Shown: positions 38,174 to 47,178 of the stretch, in pieces
How the letters are laid out: every line of letters starts with the position of its first letter
Position numbering within the stretch: position 1 is the stretch's first letter
NCBI GenBank assembly: GCA_022448105.1
Contig: JAKVAV010000022.1
Location: 1 to 47,414 of the forward strand
DNA length: 47,414 bases
Reading direction: 5' to 3'
From: Flavobacteriales bacterium
GTDB taxonomy: Bacteria; Bacteroidota; Bacteroidia; Flavobacteriales_D; Cryomorphaceae
Notes under the pieces: model-generated
Database searches by the model: none
The model's input: only the letters and a program-made list of their open reading frames with translations
What the model was told of the DNA's origin: nothing
Translations under genes and position numbers: made by a program

Positions 38174-38767
38174 TTACTCTTTACTATTCCTATGTTTTAG
38201 GACCTGCTCAATATCAGATAGTTGAAGGTTTTTTGCTTTTAATAATACCAAAAAGTGGTAAAGTAAATCTGCCGCCTCACCTTTGAAAAGATCCACATCG
38301 TCGTCTTTAGCTTCAATCACCACTTCAATTGCTTCTTCACCTACTTTTTGGGCAATTTTGTTGATTCCTTTTTCAAAGAGATAACTCGTATAAGATTCTT
38401 CGGGAGATTGTCCCTTTTTCTCTTCAATAATTGACTCCAGTTCATAGATAAATCCTTTGGCAGGACTATTTCCAAAACAAGTGTCATCCCCTTTGTGACA
38501 GGTGGGGCCAACGGGTATAGCTTGCACAAGGATAGTATCGTTATCGCAATCTTCTTTCATGGAAACCAGCTTGAGGTGATTTCCAGAAGTTTCTCCCTTG
38601 GTCCAAAGCCTGTTTTTACTTCGGCTAAAAAATGTCACTAGGCCAGTATCTAAGGTTCTTTCGAGAGCTTCTTGGTTCATGTAACCCAGCATTTGCACTT
38701 CTTTTGTGCGTGCATCTTGAACAATGGTGGGAACCAGTCCGTCTCCTTTTTCGAAGTCAATTTTCAT
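38174..38767 (-). CDS. hisIE: Bifunctional phosphoribosyl-AMP cyclohydrolase / phosphoribosyl-ATP pyrophosphatase
   Basis: The 197-residue product fuses HisI (about 1-105: [20 protein letters not shown], and the zinc ligands [17 protein letters not shown]) with HisE (about 110-197: [29 protein letters not shown], with the acidic metal site [11 protein letters not shown]-like). It performs steps 2 and 3 of histidine synthesis. It is the last gene of the operon, and its start overlaps hisF by 4 nt. Confidence 0.96.
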
Positions 38768-39510
38768 CTGATAGGAATGTTTTGTTGTCTAAGTTTTGTC
38801 TTTAGTTGAGGTATAGGGATTTCTCCAAAATGAAAAATGCTCGCGGCTAGAGCTGCGTCGGCCATCGTAAATATTTCTGTGAAATCTTCAATCTTTCCCG
38901 CTCCACCAGAGGCGATGATGGGAATCTTCGTCTCAGTGGTGATTGCTTCGGTGAGTTCCACATCAAATCCACTTTTGGTTCCGTCCTTGCGCATTGAGGT
39001 GAGCAGTATTTCTCCAGCTCCTCTTTCTTCTGCCTCTTTTGCCCATTCAATAGCGTTGAGCTTCGTTTCTGTTCTGCCGCCGCGGGTGAAAACCTTCCAC
39101 TCTCCGTGCACCTTATTTGCATCAAGACCAAGCACAAGGCATTGGTTTCCATAAAGATCAGCAATCTCCGAAAGCAGTTCTGGCTTCTTCACCGCCGCTG
39201 AATTTACGCTCACCTTGTCTGCTCCTGCTTTGAGTAAATCACCCACGTCTTCCAGTTCTGAAATCCCTCCTCCAACGGTAAACGGTATATTGATTTCCTC
39301 TGATATCCGCTCTACCAATTCAATCAGCGTTTTTCGCTTATCCACAGTAGCGGTGATATCTAAAAAAACGAGCTCATCGGCACCTTCCGTGCTGTATGCT
39401 TTTGCCAACTCGACAGGATCGCCTGCATCACGAAGGTTTACGAAATTGACTCCTTTCACCGTGCGGCCATCTTTTATGTCGAGGCAGGGAATAATTCTCT
39501 TCTTCAACAT
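38764..39510 (-). CDS. hisF: Imidazole glycerol phosphate synthase, cyclase subunit
   Basis: The 248-residue TIM barrel begins [24 protein letters not shown] with the catalytic Asp of the first strand, and carries DKVSVNSAA and [15 protein letters not shown]. HisF uses ammonia from HisH to form IGP and AICAR. It overlaps hisIE by 4 nt and hisA by 7 nt. Confidence 0.97.
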
Positions 39511-40220
39511 AGCTGTGAAAGTTCTTTTAGTTCAATTCGGCCTTCGTAGATGGCCTTCCCAATAATGGCTCCATGAAGTTTCATCTCTTTGAGTTTTTCT
39601 AAATCATCAATACTTCTAATGCCGCCACTGGCAATGAGTTCAATGCCTTCTATTTCGCTGAGAACCTTTTCATAGAGTTCAAACGATGGTCCCTCGAGCA
39701 TGCCGTCTTTTGCCACATCGGTGCTGATGACTGTTTTTAATCCTTTTTCAATGTACTCCCTAACAAAGTCATAGACGTACTCGTCCACCGTCTCGGTCCA
39801 ACCGGAAATGGCGATCTTCTCGTCTTTGACATCTGCTCCGAGAATCAGGTGTTCCTGCCCATATCGATTAATCCATTGTTCAACCAGACCTCGGTTTTTA
39901 ATGGCAATACTGCCGACGGTTACTTTTTCTGCTCCCGATTCAAAAGCTATTTTGATGGACTCATCAGATTTTATTCCTCCACCAAAGTCCACTTCTAATG
40001 AAGTCTTTGAGGCAATTCTTTCTAAAGTCTTGTAGTTTATTACCTCTCCTTGTTGGGCTCCGTCCAGATCTACCAAATGAAGGAAAGTAATCCCGTATTC
40101 TTCAAATCTCATCGCCATGTCTAAGGGGTCGCTAGCGTATTCCTTTTTTGTGCTAAAGTTTCCTTTCGTAAGCCGCACGCATTTCCCATTAATGAGGTCA
40201 ATCGCGGGTATTATTTTCAT
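39504..40220 (-). CDS. hisA: Phosphoribosylformimino-AICAR ribotide isomerase
   Basis: The 238-residue TIM barrel begins [20 protein letters not shown] with the catalytic Asp, followed by [13 protein letters not shown], the second catalytic Asp segment [13 protein letters not shown] and [10 protein letters not shown]. It catalyses the Amadori-type isomerisation (step 4). It overlaps hisF by 7 nt and hisH by 4 nt. Confidence 0.97.
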
Positions 40221-40801
40221 GAATTCATGTTTAAGAAGTTTGACAATATCTTAGAACCAATTTCTCCTGATTTTTCTGGGTGAAATTGAACGCCAAAGAA
40301 ATTCCTTTCTCGAAGAGAGGCTGAAAATGGAATGAGATATTCACATTTCGCAGAAGTCTGAGAGCCCATCTCTACAAAATAGGAATGAACGAAATAAACA
40401 TTGGATCCCTCTGTGATTCCCTCAAAAAGAGAACCTTTAGGATCAATGAGTTCATTCCAACCCATGTGTGGGATTTTTATCTGACCTTCAAATTTCCTTA
40501 CCCTTTCGGTAAAGATTCCCAATCCGCTTACATCACCTTCATTGCTGTGACTGCACATTAATTGCATCCCTAGGCAAATCCCGAGAACAGGCTGTTTAAG
40601 ATTTTTAATCACCTCGTCTAAGCCCGATCTCTGGAGCTTCTCCATGGCGGGTTTGGCATGTCCAACACCCGGAAAAATCACCTTGTGAGCACCTTTGATT
40701 TGCTCAGAATCAGAGGTAATAAGACTTTCGGCACCTAGTCTGTTTAGAGCGTTATAAACTGACTTAACGTTTCCAGCTCCATAATCAATGATAGCTATCA
40801 T
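40217..40801 (-). CDS. hisH: Imidazole glycerol phosphate synthase, glutaminase subunit
   Basis: The 194-residue class I glutamine amidotransferase has the nucleophile motif [10 protein letters not shown], the start [16 protein letters not shown] and the His/Glu dyad in [13 protein letters not shown]. It supplies ammonia to HisF. It overlaps both neighbours by 4 nt. Confidence 0.97.
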
Positions 40802-41886
40802 AAACTGCCTTTTGTGCTAGGGATTCTATAATCGCCAGTATCGGTTATCGCCATGCGAATAGCTCTCGACCAGGCTTTAAAAATTGACTCGATCTTGTGG
40901 TGTTCGTTTTCACCTTCAGCTTTTATGTTCATGTTGCATTGAGCCGTATCTGAGAAACTTTTAAAAAAGTGAGAGAACATTTCGGTTGGCATCTCTCCAA
41001 TTTTCTCTCGATTGAACTCAGCTTCCCAAATGAGCCATGGTCTTCCGCCAAAATCAAGGGCAACTTGAGCTAAACAATCGTCCATAGGAAGAGTAAATCC
41101 GTATCTCGATATTCCCTTTTTGGAGCCAAGAGCCTCCCTAAACGCTTGACCTAAAGCCAAACCGGTGTCTTCGATGGTGTGGTGCTCGTCTATTTCGAGG
41201 TCGCCTCTTACTTTGATTTCCAAATCAATGCCTCCATGCTTAGCTAATTGATCCAGCATGTGGTCGAAGAAGTGAATTCCTGTGCTCACTTTTCCTTCGC
41301 CATTTCCATCAAGGTTGAGATTGACCAGAATATCGGTCTCAGAAGTCTTTCGGATAACGGATGATCTTCGGAATTGACCTTTTAAATACTTGTAGATTTC
41401 ATTCCAACTCTCTGTAGATAAGGTGGCTTCATCATTTGACTCCGGTGAAATGAAAATTGATTTTGCTCCAAGATTTTTGGCCAACTGAATATCGCTGGTG
41501 CGGTCTCCTAGAACGAAGGAGTTTTCCAGATCGAAATCGCCTTTTATGTAATGCGTGAGCATCGCCGTTCCTGGCTTTCTGGTTGGAGCGTTATCTTTTG
41601 GCCTTGTTGGATCGATCAGAATCTCATCAAACGTTATTCCCTCATCTTCTAGAATCTGAAGCATCTTGTTATGAGGAGGCCAGAAGTTTTCTTCCGGGTG
41701 AGAATCAGTTCCCAAACCGTCTTGGTTGGTAACCATAACGAGGAGATAATCAGTCTCTCTTGCAATTCGTGCAAGATTAGTGATAGCACCTGGTAAGAAC
41801 CTTAGTTTCTCAAAACTGTCGATCTGTTCGTCTTCGGGTTCCTCTATAATAGTTCCGTCGCGGTCAATGAATAATACCTTTTTCAT
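40798..41886 (-). CDS. hisB: Bifunctional histidinol-phosphatase / imidazoleglycerol-phosphate dehydratase
   Basis: The 362-residue product joins an N-terminal HAD phosphatase (about 1-165, [11 protein letters not shown] with the catalytic Asp pair) and a C-terminal IGP dehydratase (about 170-362) with the metal-binding pattern [17 protein letters not shown], ...[17 protein letters not shown]... and [10 protein letters not shown]. It performs steps 6 and 8. The fused arrangement is that of enterobacteria and many Bacteroidota. Confidence 0.97.
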
Positions 41887-42917
41887 GAGTAAAATGCTTT
41901 AATGTTTTCCAACAAAACTTTGTTCTCAGTCGGTGTTCCAATCGTGATGCGAATGGCGTTTTCCACCTGATTTGATCGGTTTCGGAGTATGATACCCTTA
42001 TCAGCCAATTTTCTGTAAAGCTCCACTGCTCTTTCCATCCTAACCAGTAAAAAGTTTGCAGAGGAAGGATAAACTTCTTTCACTTCGTCGATTTCAACCA
42101 GGCTACGCTTCAATAATTCACGTTCTTTCAATATCAAATCTATTTGATCCTGAACCTTATCACTATTCTTAAGCTCTTCTAATGCGTAGGACTGAGTGAG
42201 TTCGTTGATATTATAAGGGGGCTTGATTTTGTTAATAACCTCTATAATTTCCTTACTTGCGAAGGCCATTCCCAGCCTTATCCCCGCAAGTCCAAACGCT
42301 TTTGAGAATGTTTGTAAAACGACGAGGTTAGGGAATTCATTCAGTCTTTTTGTCCAGGAAGTCCCTTCAGAAAAATCAGCATAAGCTTCGTCGATTACCA
42401 CAATTCCAGAACTAGTATTCAGAATCGTCTCGACTATCTCAATTTTGATCGTATTCCCGGTCGGATTATTCGGAGAGCACAAAAACGTAAGTTTTGGGTA
42501 TCCAGATTTGACTAGAGTCAAATCTGGTTGGAAATCACTATCGAGCTTAACCTCCTCAGCTTCAATATTATTGATCTCAGCCGAAACTCTGTACATGCCA
42601 TAAGTAGGGGTGAAGATGAGAATCTTATCATCTTGAGGCTCGCAGAATGCTCTCATGAGTAAATCTATGGCCTCGTCACTTCCATTTCCTAAAAAGATCT
42701 TTGATGGGTTCACGTCTTTTAAGTCAGCGATTTTCGCTTTCAGCTTTCGTTGGTAAGGATCAGGATATCGATTCAATCCGTTATTCTCAAATGGATTTTC
42801 ATTTGCATCTAGGCTAATTGACGCTTTCCCTTCAAACTCATCTCTCGCGCTTCTGTATGGCGCAAGGCTCATGACATTTCTTCTTACCAGTCTTTCTAAG
42901 TCAAATCCTTCTTTCAT
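41883..42917 (-). CDS. hisC: Histidinol-phosphate aminotransferase
   Basis: The 344-residue PLP enzyme is of the aspartate-aminotransferase fold I class II type. It has the N-terminal LDANENPF motif, [36 protein letters not shown] and the Schiff-base Lys in [16 protein letters not shown]. It performs step 7. Overlaps of 4 nt with both hisB and hisD. Confidence 0.97.
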
Positions 42918-44194
42918 GACAATCTAAGTGTTACCGCGTTTTTGTGAGCTTGGAGTCCTTCCGCTTCAGCCAGCAGTTCCACCGCTCTTCCGATATTCTC
43001 AATTCCCTCTTGAGATATCTCTTGGAAAGTCACTTTTTTGACAAAGCTATCTAAGGAAACTCCTGAATAGCTTCTCGCAAAACCGTTGGTGGGAAGGGTG
43101 TGGTTGGTACCGCTCGCATAGTCGCCAATGCTCTCACAACTCCATTTGCCAATAAAAACACTTCCCGCTGTTTTCACTTCTTCTGCCAACGCTGACGCAT
43201 TTTCGGTATTGATGATGAGGTGCTCAGGAGCGTAAGAATTTGAAAAATCCATCGCTTCTCGATCATTTCCGAAAATGGCGACCAAGCTATTTTCCAGTGC
43301 TTTTTGGGCTATTTCCTTGCGTGGAAGAGCATTCAATTGAGATTCAATTTCACTTTTAATGTCCGCTACAAGTTTTTCAGTGGGGCCATTTTGATCTGTT
43401 ATTACTAGTACGACTTGACTGTCGGTACCGTGCTCAGCTTGACTGAGCAAATCGGCGGCTACAAAACGAGGGTCTGCTTTTGCATCAGCAATGACCAGAA
43501 CTTCGCTAGGTCCAGCGGGCATATCAATAGCGGTTCCTTCTTCTTGGACTAGCTGTTTAGCTTTGGTAACGAAGCGATTTCCCGGACCAAATATCTTGTC
43601 ACATTTGCGCACAGACTTCGTTCCGTATGCCATCGCTGCGATGGCTTGAGCACCTCCAATTTTCACAATCTTCCCTATTTCTAGTCTTTTTGCGATGAAA
43701 GTGATAGCGGGATTCACATTTCCATTTTCGTCGGGAGGAGTGCATACCACGATGTTTTCGCATCCAGCGAGTTTTGCCGGTATGGCAAGCATCATCAATG
43801 AAGAGAGAAGGGGAGCGGTACCACCGGGAACGTAAAGTCCCACTGTTTGAATCGGTAAGCTCTTACGCCAGCATTTCACTCCTGTCAAGGTTTCAACAAC
43901 TTGCGTAACTTCTTTTTGAGAGATATGAAATTTCTCGATGTTTTTGATCGCGATATCTATGGCCTCTTTTAGCTCTGCCGAAAGGTTAGCTGGCTCACCA
44001 TCTGTCTCGAAAACGAAACTGTCCTCAGAAAGTCGATCGAATTTTTTAGCGTATTTCAAAACTGCCTCATCGCCACTTCTTTTTACTGTTGAAAGTATTT
44101 CACGAACTGTCTCTTCAATAGATTCGGTTTCGAAATCTGGTCGTTTGATTAACTCCAACCAGTCCTTTTGATCAGGGAATTTTACAGTTTTCAA
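42914..44194 (-). CDS. hisD: Histidinol dehydrogenase
   Basis: The 426-residue product performs the last two oxidations (histidinol to histidine). It shows VPGGTAPLLSSLMMLAIPAKLAGC, KIFGPGNRFVTKAKQLV, DMPAGPSEVLVIAD, DLLSQAEHG and NHTLPT with the zinc and catalytic residues. I prefer the TTG at 44194: it overlaps the hisG stop as TTGA, as the other genes of the operon overlap by 4 nt, and gives the family-like start MKTVKFPDQKDWLELIKRP. The alternative ATG at 44218 adds eight residues and overlaps hisG by 28 nt. Confidence 0.93.
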   Translation of the reverse strand: MKTVKFPDQKDWLELIKRPDFETESIEETVREILSTVKRSGDEAVLKYAKKFDRLSEDSFVFETDGEPANLSAELKEAIDIAIKNIEKFHISQKEVTQVVETLTGVKCWRKSLPIQTVGLYVPGGTAPLLSSLMMLAIPAKLAGCENIVVCTPPDENGNVNPAITFIAKRLEIGKIVKIGGAQAIAAMAYGTKSVRKCDKIFGPGNRFVTKAKQLVQEEGTAIDMPAGPSEVLVIADAKADPRFVAADLLSQAEHGTDSQVVLVITDQNGPTEKLVADIKSEIESQLNALPRKEIAQKALENSLVAIFGNDREAMDFSNSYAPEHLIINTENASALAEEVKTAGSVFIGKWSCESIGDYASGTNHTLPTNGFARSYSGVSLDSFVKKVTFQEISQEGIENIGRAVELLAEAEGLQAHKNAVTLRLS

Positions 44195-45042
44195 AGTACC
44201 ATTTTTTCTATTGGACAAACGAGTATGCCTTCTGCTCCGGCAGCTCTTAATTGGTCAATGACTTCCCAGAACTCATCTTCTTTCACCACCGAGTGTAAAC
44301 TGCTCCAGCCTCCCTTGGCCAAGGGAAGTATAGTCGGACTCTTCATTCCAGGTAAAAGTTCGATGATTCGGTCAACCGATTTATTTGGAGCATTCAACAA
44401 AATATACTTGGATCTGTCGGCGGTATTCACTGCTCTGATTCTGAAGAGAAGACGCTCCACAATTTGGGATTTTTCGTTGCTCAGATTTTCAGAAGTGACC
44501 AGCAATGCTTCACTGTAGTCTACAGTTTCTACCTCCTTAAGACCATTTGCCAAAAGAGTGCTTCCAGTGCTAACGATGTCGCAAACAGCATCGGCTAAAC
44601 CTATACTTGGCGCAATTTCTACGCTTCCGCTGATCTCTTCTATTTCTGCCTCAAGGCCTTTTTCCTTGAGGAATTCCTGAACGATCCGAGGGTAAGAGGT
44701 GGCAATTTTTTTCCCGTTAAACCATACTAATCCAGTATAGTTCAATTCTCTCCTCACTGCGAGTGAAAGTCTGCATTTAGCAAATCCGAGTCGCTCCGCT
44801 ATGGCCAATTGCTTCGCTTTTTCTTTTACAACATTTTCCCCAACAATTCCAATGTCAGCTACTCCGTCTGCTACATATTGGGGGATATCATCGTCGCGGA
44901 GATAGAGTACTTCCAAGGGGAAATTGGAGGCCTCACTTTTTAGTTTTCCGCCATTGGAGACTTTTATCCCACAATTTTTAAGCAGCTCAATGCTCTTGTT
45001 ACTAAGTCTACCACCTTTTTGGATGGCCAATTTTAACTTCAT
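44191..45042 (-). CDS. hisG: ATP phosphoribosyltransferase (long form)
   Basis: The 283-residue product catalyses the first step. It has the bilobal catalytic core (MKLKLAIQKGGRLSNKSIELL, VADGVADIGIVGENVV, VEIAPSIGLADAVCDIVSTGSTL) and a C-terminal regulatory domain (about 205-283), so it is a HisG-L enzyme sensitive to histidine feedback without HisZ. It heads the operon and follows the attenuator by 20 bases. Order of the operon is hisGDCBHAF(IE). Confidence 0.96.
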   Translation of the reverse strand: MKLKLAIQKGGRLSNKSIELLKNCGIKVSNGGKLKSEASNFPLEVLYLRDDDIPQYVADGVADIGIVGENVVKEKAKQLAIAERLGFAKCRLSLAVRRELNYTGLVWFNGKKIATSYPRIVQEFLKEKGLEAEIEEISGSVEIAPSIGLADAVCDIVSTGSTLLANGLKEVETVDYSEALLVTSENLSNEKSQIVERLLFRIRAVNTADRSKYILLNAPNKSVDRIIELLPGMKSPTILPLAKGGWSSLHSVVKEDEFWEVIDQLRAAGAEGILVCPIEKMVL

Positions 45043-45062: not shown

Positions 45063-45094
45063 AAAAAAGCCCCTCCGAAGACGGAGGGGCTTTT
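45063..45094 (-). terminator. Attenuator terminator of the his operon
   Basis: On the minus strand AAAAGCCCCTCCG, loop TCTT, CGGAGGGGCTTTTTT forms a strong hairpin followed by T6, located between the leader peptide and hisG. Confidence 0.9.
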
Positions 45095-45119
45095 GTAAGT
45101 TATATTTTACACTACAGCA

Positions 45120-45179
45120 CTACCGTTCTTCGGGGTGAACCGATGAAAACGCATGATGCTGATGTGTATGATTTCTCAT
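45120..45179 (-). CDS. hisL: Histidine operon leader peptide
   Basis: A 19-residue frame, MRNHTHQHHAFSSVHPEER, lies 26 bases ahead of the attenuator hairpin. Five of its 19 residues are His, four of them in the first nine codons, as in hisL of enterobacteria. Stalling of the ribosome at these His codons under histidine shortage would expose the segment at 45123-45133 (CCGAAGAACGG on the minus strand). That segment can pair with CCGTCTTCGG in the terminator (45075-45084), a helix of ten pairs with one bulged A, which breaks the terminator. Finished translation would cover it and let the terminator form. This is a complete two-state attenuator, inferred from sequence. Confidence 0.85.
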   Translation of the reverse strand: MRNHTHQHHAFSSVHPEER

Positions 45180-45186
45180 TAGGTTG

Positions 45187-45223
45187 CAAATTTAAGTTGA
45201 TCAAATCGGATCTACCAAATTTA
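45187..45223 (-). promoter_or_regulatory. Probable his operon promoter
   Basis: TAAATTTG (minus strand, 45194-45187) matches TAnnTTTG; a TTTG at 45219-45216 lies 21 bases upstream. With this pair the transcript would begin almost at the leader ATG. A second TAAATTTG (45223-45216) could instead give a longer leader. Confidence 0.45.
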
Positions 45224-45384: not shown

Positions 45385-47178
45385 TTACCTCAAGATTTGC
45401 AGCTTGATTGTTTCTTGAGCATCCCCTACAAGTAGGTTTATGAAGTAAATACCTTCGCTGAGGTCGTTTATATCAATGTATGCTCTATTCAATCCAACAG
45501 AGCGATTTCCAAGGTCGATAGTTTTCACTATTTGACCTACGACATTTACCATTTCAATGGTCACTCGATCTGCAGCAGTCAATTCTAGATCAACTGTAAA
45601 CTGATCATTTGTGGGGTTTGGATAAACTTTGGCGGATTGCTCAATTGATAAGCTTTTGTCGCCCAGAATAATTGAAGGAAGAGGCTCACATTGTCGTCCT
45701 TCCACTTCATCCGCAAAACGCTGAAGCGTTTCGATTTCGGTCTCATTGTCATCGTACGAATCTCGTGCAAAAATATATGCAAGGTCAATGTATTGAATAT
45801 CTCCTGGTGCAAAGGTAAATGGCCCGGATGAACCTAGCATTCTTCTCTCTCCTGGTAGCATTGCTTCGTTTTGTTCAGTCCAGCCGTCATCCCCTGTATA
45901 ATTGGGATCTGTTCCGTCAGTACCTACAAATAATGGATCTGAACCCCCAGAAAAATGATATCGAGTAGAAAGATTGTCAATGCCGTACCCAGTTCCTCCA
46001 TATGATAGACTTAGGCCATCTCGCCATCTTGAATTCATGTAGTTATAATATTCGATTGGTGTTTGTGGAGCCTGCATAAAGGCAGGTCCAACGCCTTCTG
46101 CGTAGAAGATAGAATTGCTCAACCCCAGACGTTCATTGTCAATAATTCCGTCATTATAGCCTGTTGTTTCATTTCCATAAAATGCCTGATTCAAAGGAGT
46201 ATCTAAGCCATCGTCATCAGCAAATACTCCACCGAGAATTTTCACACCAAATGCAGGTAGATCATCGGCATATCCTGGTCCGGAAAAATTTTGTTCATCA
46301 AATGAATCTCCATTGTAGACATAGAACATACTCCTTCCAACATCAGATGCGATGTAATCGTCAATAGGGTTTCCTAAATCTAAATCGGTGCAAATTGCAG
46401 AGTAAGTATCATTTGTAAGAGTGTTGTCCCTGTTTATGAGTTTGTATTGAACAAACAAAGTATTAAACTCAGCTTCAGATTCGGATTCATATCCATAAAC
46501 ACTTGTATGGATCTCCAACCCTATGCTCGAAATGTTTTCTGATAAAGAGTTGAGGCCAAGAGTATTCCATATGAAGTATGTAGAGAAATCTCCACATATT
46601 GCCGGATGATCTCCACTTGTAGGAGTGTAAACTCCATCATTATTGCGGTCTACATATGGAGCTAAATGATCTGCATATCCCGCAGCGCCCTCTGCTGGCC
46701 AGGTCAAAAAAGCTTCCGGAATTTCATAATCGGGAAAGTTAATGTCCACATCGCAATTTGAATCATTGAAGCAGTCGAAATAGTATTGGTGTTCATCAAT
46801 TTGAGCGGACGTAATAAACCAAACCCGATTGTATTCTGACACGTCTTCAGTGCTATTGGCGGCTCCGTTTAATTTTAATGGACCCCAATTTTCATTGCAC
46901 ATTTCATTCGCATCTTGGCAATGTCTGTGAAAGGCTATTTTTAAGTCTCCACTTGGCGATACTCCTCCCAGCCATATCGTTGATGTAAATACAGAGTGAT
47001 TTCCCTCTCCTGCTGGAACTTCTAATCCCGGTAAACCCTGAGAACGATTGTTGAAAAGGCTACCATTTGTCGTTTGAGCCCACCTAAAATTATTTCCTTC
47101 GAAAAAGAATGTTGGTTGTGAAAATGCGTAGAGCTGGATGAGTAGGAAAAGTGTAAGACTTGATAGATTTCTTATCAT
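45385..47178 (-). CDS. Large secreted protein with T9SS sorting domain
   Basis: The 597-residue product has a signal peptide (MIRNLSSLTLFLLIQLYAFSQ), a long Asn/Asp/Gly-rich body with aspartate-rich loops such as DRNNDGVYTP and FADDDGLDTP (calcium-binding-like) and a C-terminal sorting domain (about 515-597: KVYPNPTNDQFTVDLELTAADRVTIEMV...LSEGIYFINLLVGD). No catalytic motif is seen; it looks like a surface or extracellular structural protein of Bacteroidota. A homologue or gene with the same C terminus lies directly upstream at the window edge. The his leader lies beyond its terminator. Confidence 0.85.
   Translation of the reverse strand: MIRNLSSLTLFLLIQLYAFSQPTFFFEGNNFRWAQTTNGSLFNNRSQGLPGLEVPAGEGNHSVFTSTIWLGGVSPSGDLKIAFHRHCQDANEMCNENWGPLKLNGAANSTEDVSEYNRVWFITSAQIDEHQYYFDCFNDSNCDVDINFPDYEIPEAFLTWPAEGAAGYADHLAPYVDRNNDGVYTPTSGDHPAICGDFSTYFIWNTLGLNSLSENISSIGLEIHTSVYGYESESEAEFNTLFVQYKLINRDNTLTNDTYSAICTDLDLGNPIDDYIASDVGRSMFYVYNGDSFDEQNFSGPGYADDLPAFGVKILGGVFADDDGLDTPLNQAFYGNETTGYNDGIIDNERLGLSNSIFYAEGVGPAFMQAPQTPIEYYNYMNSRWRDGLSLSYGGTGYGIDNLSTRYHFSGGSDPLFVGTDGTDPNYTGDDGWTEQNEAMLPGERRMLGSSGPFTFAPGDIQYIDLAYIFARDSYDDNETEIETLQRFADEVEGRQCEPLPSIILGDKSLSIEQSAKVYPNPTNDQFTVDLELTAADRVTIEMVNVVGQIVKTIDLGNRSVGLNRAYIDINDLSEGIYFINLLVGDAQETIKLQILR

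Follow-up and report, generated by a model that had tools for sequence, protein, structure and literature searches.

The histidine biosynthesis operon of the window, the whole analysed stretch of 47,414 nucleotides, appears to be governed by a leader-peptide (ribosome-mediated) transcription attenuator. Sequence comparison and RNA folding together indicate that this element is real, conserved and most likely working, at a probability of roughly 93%. Upstream of hisG we found a short ORF rich in codons for the product of the operon, an intrinsic terminator, an antiterminator exclusive with it, and an alternative pairing that covaries. The His frame, the terminator and the pairing between the leader end and the terminator are conserved together and change together among relatives. 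The original prediction had proposed ribosome-mediated his attenuation in a particularly simple form with two structures; comparison strongly supports the switch, but not the simplicity. The features are collected in Table 1.

Table 1. Features of the his operon and its leader in the window.
Feature	Position	Strand	Basis or property
hisD, hisC, hisB, hisH, hisA, hisF, hisIE	38174..44218	-	overlapping or adjacent ORFs; names from sequence
hisG	44191..45042	-	TIGR00070 and TIGR03455
Intrinsic terminator, AAGCCCCTCCG TCTT CGGAGGGGCTT and U tract	45063..45092	-	-24.4 kcal/mol, z -7.0
Segment 3, CCGTCTTCGG: top of terminator 5' arm, loop and first 3 bases of 3' arm	45075..45084	-	partner of segment 2
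Putative protective hairpin enclosing segment 2	45109..45167	-	-20.5 kcal/mol, z -3.85
His leader peptide ORF, MRNHTHQHHAFSSVHPEER, stop included	45120..45179	-	sequence and conservation
Segment 2, antiterminator strand CCGAAGAACGG, end of leader ORF	45123..45133	-	pairs with 45084-45075
Codons 4-9 with His codons 4, 6, 8 and 9 (likely sensing)	45153..45170	-	folding by ribosome position
Predicted Bacteroidota sigma-A -7 box, TAAATTTG	45187..45194	-	match to TANNTTTG
Possible -33 TTTG box, 21 nt upstream of -7 box	45216..45219	-	sequence

The first gene of the operon, hisG, was matched by TIGR00070 at 2e-55 and also by TIGR03455. It is followed by hisD, hisC, hisB, hisH, hisA, hisF and hisIE, these genes being named from their sequences. 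The 151-nt leader region folds with a z of -6.8, which 0/200 shuffles equalled. Within it, the leader ORF runs on the minus strand from an ATG at 45179-45177 to a TAG at 45122-45120 and comprises 19 codons, five of which (4, 6, 8, 9 and 15) encode His; the ORF had been predicted with these five His codons, and both its coordinates and its sequence were right. Dinucleotide-shuffled hisG upstream regions contained at least four His within eight codons in about 0.6% of cases. We then surveyed 246 distinct hisG upstream regions from the order, class and phylum of the window and from named genomes, scoring as His-rich any short ORF with at least three His in eight codons. Such an ORF was present in 95.9% of the 246 regions, compared with 3.3% for the antisense strand and 5.4% for dinucleotide shuffles.

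The predicted intrinsic terminator behind the leader was recovered as a GC-rich hairpin with a U tract, beginning 27 nt past the leader ORF. A terminator was located downstream of the His ORF in 205/236 loci having that ORF. Retention of the terminator without the His-rich frame or the pairing was not seen among the surveyed relatives.

Segment 2 at the end of the leader ORF and segment 3 in the terminator form 10 pairs with one bulged A, in agreement with the ten pairs and single bulge that had been read from the window. The stability of this duplex was -19.5 kcal/mol compared with a mean of -9.2 kcal/mol for shuffled leader ends, 0.1% of which were as good, and the duplex ranked first of 205 in its row of cognate and swapped combinations. 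Across loci, cognate duplexes between leader end and arm had a mean of -14.9 kcal/mol, as against -11.2 kcal/mol when arms were swapped between genomes (permutation sd 0.2); calculated on 176 distinct arms, the advantage of cognate over permuted duplexes corresponded to a z of -17.6. When a wide region was searched, the best partner of the arm was at the ORF end in 93.6% of loci, compared with 53% for shuffled arms.

Compensatory changes in both segments, which comparison of hisG upstream regions had been expected to reveal, were found in relatives and also within the window's own family. This family (L001-L004) contains four complementary pairs, CCGAAG/CTTCGG, CCGAA/TTCGG, CCGGGG/CCCCGG and CTCAAGCG/CGTTTGAG. 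In the flavobacterial version, one scored pair was C-G in 31 cases, T-A in 12, T-G in 2 and C-A in 0 (p 3e-9). The arm base changed 8 times on the HisG tree; independent pairs on this tree gave 4 changes in the same direction, 0 opposite and 2 unchanged, too few for significance (sign test p 0.125). A weaker leader-arm duplex was present in the closest relative, L002 (-12.6 kcal/mol, with 6.4% of shuffles as good).

We folded the RNA downstream of the ribosome with the ribosome placed at each codon, at the stage at which the terminator still lacks its 3' arm. In the window, upstream pairing of the arm and loop had a mean probability of 0.77 when the ribosome was placed at His codons 4-9, which fell to 0.32 with placement at His 15 and to 0.03 with placement at the stop codon; the antiterminator segment was predicted to be free when His codon 4, 6, 8 or 9 occupied the A site. 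More antiterminator was obtained with a stalled ribosome than with a stop-codon ribosome in 201/204 loci. The folding thus bears out the proposal that early stalling frees the segment whereas the segment is hidden once the ribosome reaches the stop codon. Because His codon 15 overlaps the masked zone, as reflected in the drop of availability from 0.77 to 0.32, four of the His codons would be useful rather than five. For the finished leader RNA at equilibrium, the terminator won at every ribosome position (P ~0.99), and equilibrium folding was for that reason rejected as evidence for the switch. The choice must therefore be kinetic. A kinetic decision is generally held for the trp and his attenuators.

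The claim that only two alternative structures are needed was not supported. A third hairpin, mutually exclusive with the other structures, joins ACACAUCAGCAU in the His region to GUGCUGUAGUGU downstream of the stop codon, and the two-structure model also fails at equilibrium. Compared with shuffles, pairing of the His codons with the post-stop sequence had a z of -4.2 in the window and a median z of -1.86 in relatives. This protective hairpin is the counterpart of the 1:2 hairpin in the classical model. As it is transcribed first, untranslated RNA would terminate. At equilibrium, however, the untranslated window RNA at the intermediate stage favoured the antiterminator (0.77) over the protective hairpin, and the hairpin would thus have to act kinetically, by folding first.

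In the mechanism we propose, transcription would begin a few nucleotides upstream of the leader ORF. A shortage of charged tRNA-His would make the ribosome stall at His codons 4-9, leaving segment 2 free to pair with segment 3 before the 3' arm is made, and this antiterminator pairing would let the polymerase read into hisG. With ample histidine, the ribosome would reach the stop codon and cover segment 2, allowing the terminator to fold and transcription to end. Without translation, the early-formed protective hairpin would hide the segment and also favour termination. We infer that the peptide is translated, that the polymerase and the ribosome are sufficiently close to each other in this organism, that the choice is kinetic and that the element responds to histidine.

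The predicted -7 box sits 7 nt upstream of the leader start, and the possible box further upstream has the TTTG of the -33 consensus cited in PMC7366714. In 181/234 loci a -7 box lay no more than 60 nt ahead of the leader start, compared with 5% of shuffles, and the distances from box to leader start formed two groups of 4-10 and 15-21 nt. Placing the box at -12 to -5, the convention of PMC9723704, puts the predicted transcription start of the window at about 45182 and leaves a 5' UTR of about 3 nt, that is, nearly leaderless initiation; 22 loci are predicted to be exactly leaderless by the same convention. About half of the box-bearing loci are predicted to have a leaderless or nearly leaderless leader ORF. 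This kind of initiation is uncommon in the phylum: leaderless or very short 5' UTRs account for 5.5% in PMC9723704, and 5' UTRs under 10 nt for 3.7% in PMC7366714. The predicted 5' UTR of about 3 nt therefore counts against the attenuator explanation. A scan for E. coli-type promoters gave no more hits than shuffles; that promoter type is not right for this phylum.

Many relatives carry a further, fifth segment that pairs with the 5' arm and loop of the terminator. It was found in 80/149 loci with room for it (L004, L010, L057, L074 and 76 other loci; GTCTGAGTAAATC/GATTTACTCAGAC is an example pair), compared with 2.1% when arms were shuffled. The segment ends mostly 13-16 nt before the hisG start and occurs in 66 distinct complementary versions, in which the loop bases covary. 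The region of the hisG start codon (ATGAGTAAAC) is a second possible partner of this segment, and cognate combinations pair better than swapped ones in a comparison uncontrolled for phylogeny. When the helix between arm and segment was forced, the hisG start codon opened relative to the terminator state in 61/80 loci; the terminator state was more stable than the arm-segment helix state in 73/80.

Such a segment, together with a terminator that ends only 24 nt from the hisG ATG, could be taken to mean that the switch acts mainly on hisG translation, with alternative hairpins opening or closing the hisG start. This is improbable for the window, as its hairpin has a proper U tract and no fifth segment was found in a search downstream of it (-4.6 kcal/mol); the nearest relatives L002 and L003 also lack the segment, the downstream duplexes in the three loci being -3.5 to -5.0 kcal/mol. 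Attenuation of transcription by the leader peptide is the preferred reading.

That the hairpin merely ends the upstream gene or terminates constitutively, with the His-rich frame a coincidence, is highly improbable. The hairpin is strong, canonical and on the minus strand, like the gene upstream (45385-47178, minus strand), but this gene has a separate terminator of its own (45352-45323; -16.6 kcal/mol, z -5.6), and the leader hairpin is therefore not simply the end of that gene. Coincidence of the His frame is refuted by conservation, given its recurrence in nearly all relatives and its covariation with the terminator. Regulation through a protein or tRNA, such as a repressor, T-box or riboswitch, with the short ORF uninvolved, is no more credible. 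Systems of this kind govern his genes in Firmicutes and Actinobacteria (PMC9413887). Against them, an Rfam search of the window, covering the T-box and known riboswitches, returned zero families at threshold, and a permissive search returned sub-threshold leader families only, the window's own match being to Thr_leader (33.8 vs a cut-off of 55). What is conserved is instead the cluster of His codons together with its distance from the stop codon, a median of 6 codons. The least credible alternative, that the small peptide is itself functional and the terminator a separate element, draws on the capacity of His-rich peptides to bind metals, but the peptides are dissimilar between genera outside the His cluster, their only conserved part, and yet the RNA pairing of the last codons is kept. 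A model for the leader peptide was not found in NCBIfam. The evidence as a whole thus points to leader-peptide attenuation.

In 29 loci, including L026-L032, L038, L040, L043, L047 and L115-L122, a His-rich leader was present but no intrinsic terminator was found. The His codons of these leaders extend to the stop codon or close to it, the median distance of the last His from the stop being 1 codon, compared with 6 in the other loci (p 6e-14). Directly after them, the sequence up to hisG is pyrimidine-rich and poor in G (6.4% vs 17.5%, p 2e-15). By analogy with the tna leader, these leaders would suit Rho-dependent termination that is blocked by a stalled ribosome. A joint reading of both variants, which we put forward tentatively and with somewhat less than even odds, is that the terminator arm and loop act as a hub coupling transcription to the control of hisG translation in relatives, and that the terminator-less families are Rho-dependent in a tna-like manner. 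In relatives with the fifth segment, capture of the hub in the terminator would leave the hisG start sequestered, whereas a free hub would let the start open.

The element in the window is a case of classical leader-peptide attenuation, a kind of control that is already well known. Predicted amino-acid attenuators were reportedly extended to some Bacteroidetes/Chlorobi by Vitreschak et al. in 2004 (FEMS Microbiol Lett 234:357). Like the his attenuator of Enterobacteria (Rfam RF00514, His_leader), the window has a His-rich ORF before hisG, a terminator, an antiterminator that is freed by stalling and a protective hairpin involving the His codons. It differs in having segment 2 within the last part of the ORF and in its Bacteroidota promoter; Shine-Dalgarno use is not expected in the phylum, in contrast to Enterobacteria. 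The window has no match to RF00514 at the gathering score, and its relative L010 reaches 31 bits against a cut-off of 49. Bacteroid-trp RNA (Rfam RF01692), the trp leader of Bacteroidetes (PMC2864571; described in PMC6414381), likewise combines an amino-acid-rich leader with a terminator in the same phylum, but concerns another amino acid and operon and gave no Rfam match in the window. In Flavobacterium psychrophilum, amino acid biosynthesis operons have been reported to show strong signs of leader peptide attenuation in their upstream regions (PMC9723704); the main text of that paper describes no element and does not name histidine. According to Naville and Gautheret 2010 (PMC2965389), leader peptides had been demonstrated only in Proteobacteria and Actinobacteria.

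The his element is one of a set of amino-acid leaders in this genome. Upstream of trpE (L274, about 878-997) we found a Trp leader, MTKRVQNTWWWSSFQSGTKL, with a terminator and a sub-threshold match to Rfam Trp_leader. A prephenate dehydratase gene (L277, about 690-850) is preceded by a Phe-rich leader, MAMTIFTFDSDFSFYFIE, and a terminator, and a gene for aspartokinase/homoserine dehydrogenase (L275, minus strand) by a Thr-rich leader, MRTQTTISINSFSSFGATALRITEATTTTTTTPLGV. The duplexes between leader and terminator of the trp and phe loci were marginal by shuffling (11% and 4%, respectively), so that these are called leaders by peptide and terminator rather than by proven pairing. An Ile/Val/Leu leader was not found upstream of ilvD in the same genome. 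As for the distribution of hisG itself, the gene was present in 94/399 genomes of the window's order, where histidine auxotrophy looks common, and in 309/371 good genomes of the phylum sample.

The survey indicates that control of histidine synthesis by ribosome stalling is near-universal among histidine-making Bacteroidota, despite the different promoters of this phylum and its absence of Shine-Dalgarno signals. A further implication is that the coupling of transcription to translation in Bacteroidota is tight enough for attenuation. The two variants in relatives, the fifth segment and the terminator-less class, would be new if confirmed, and if the hub reading is true, one leader controls both transcription and translation. 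For the specialist, the value of the finding would lie in this near-universality in histidine-making Bacteroidota and in the two variants.
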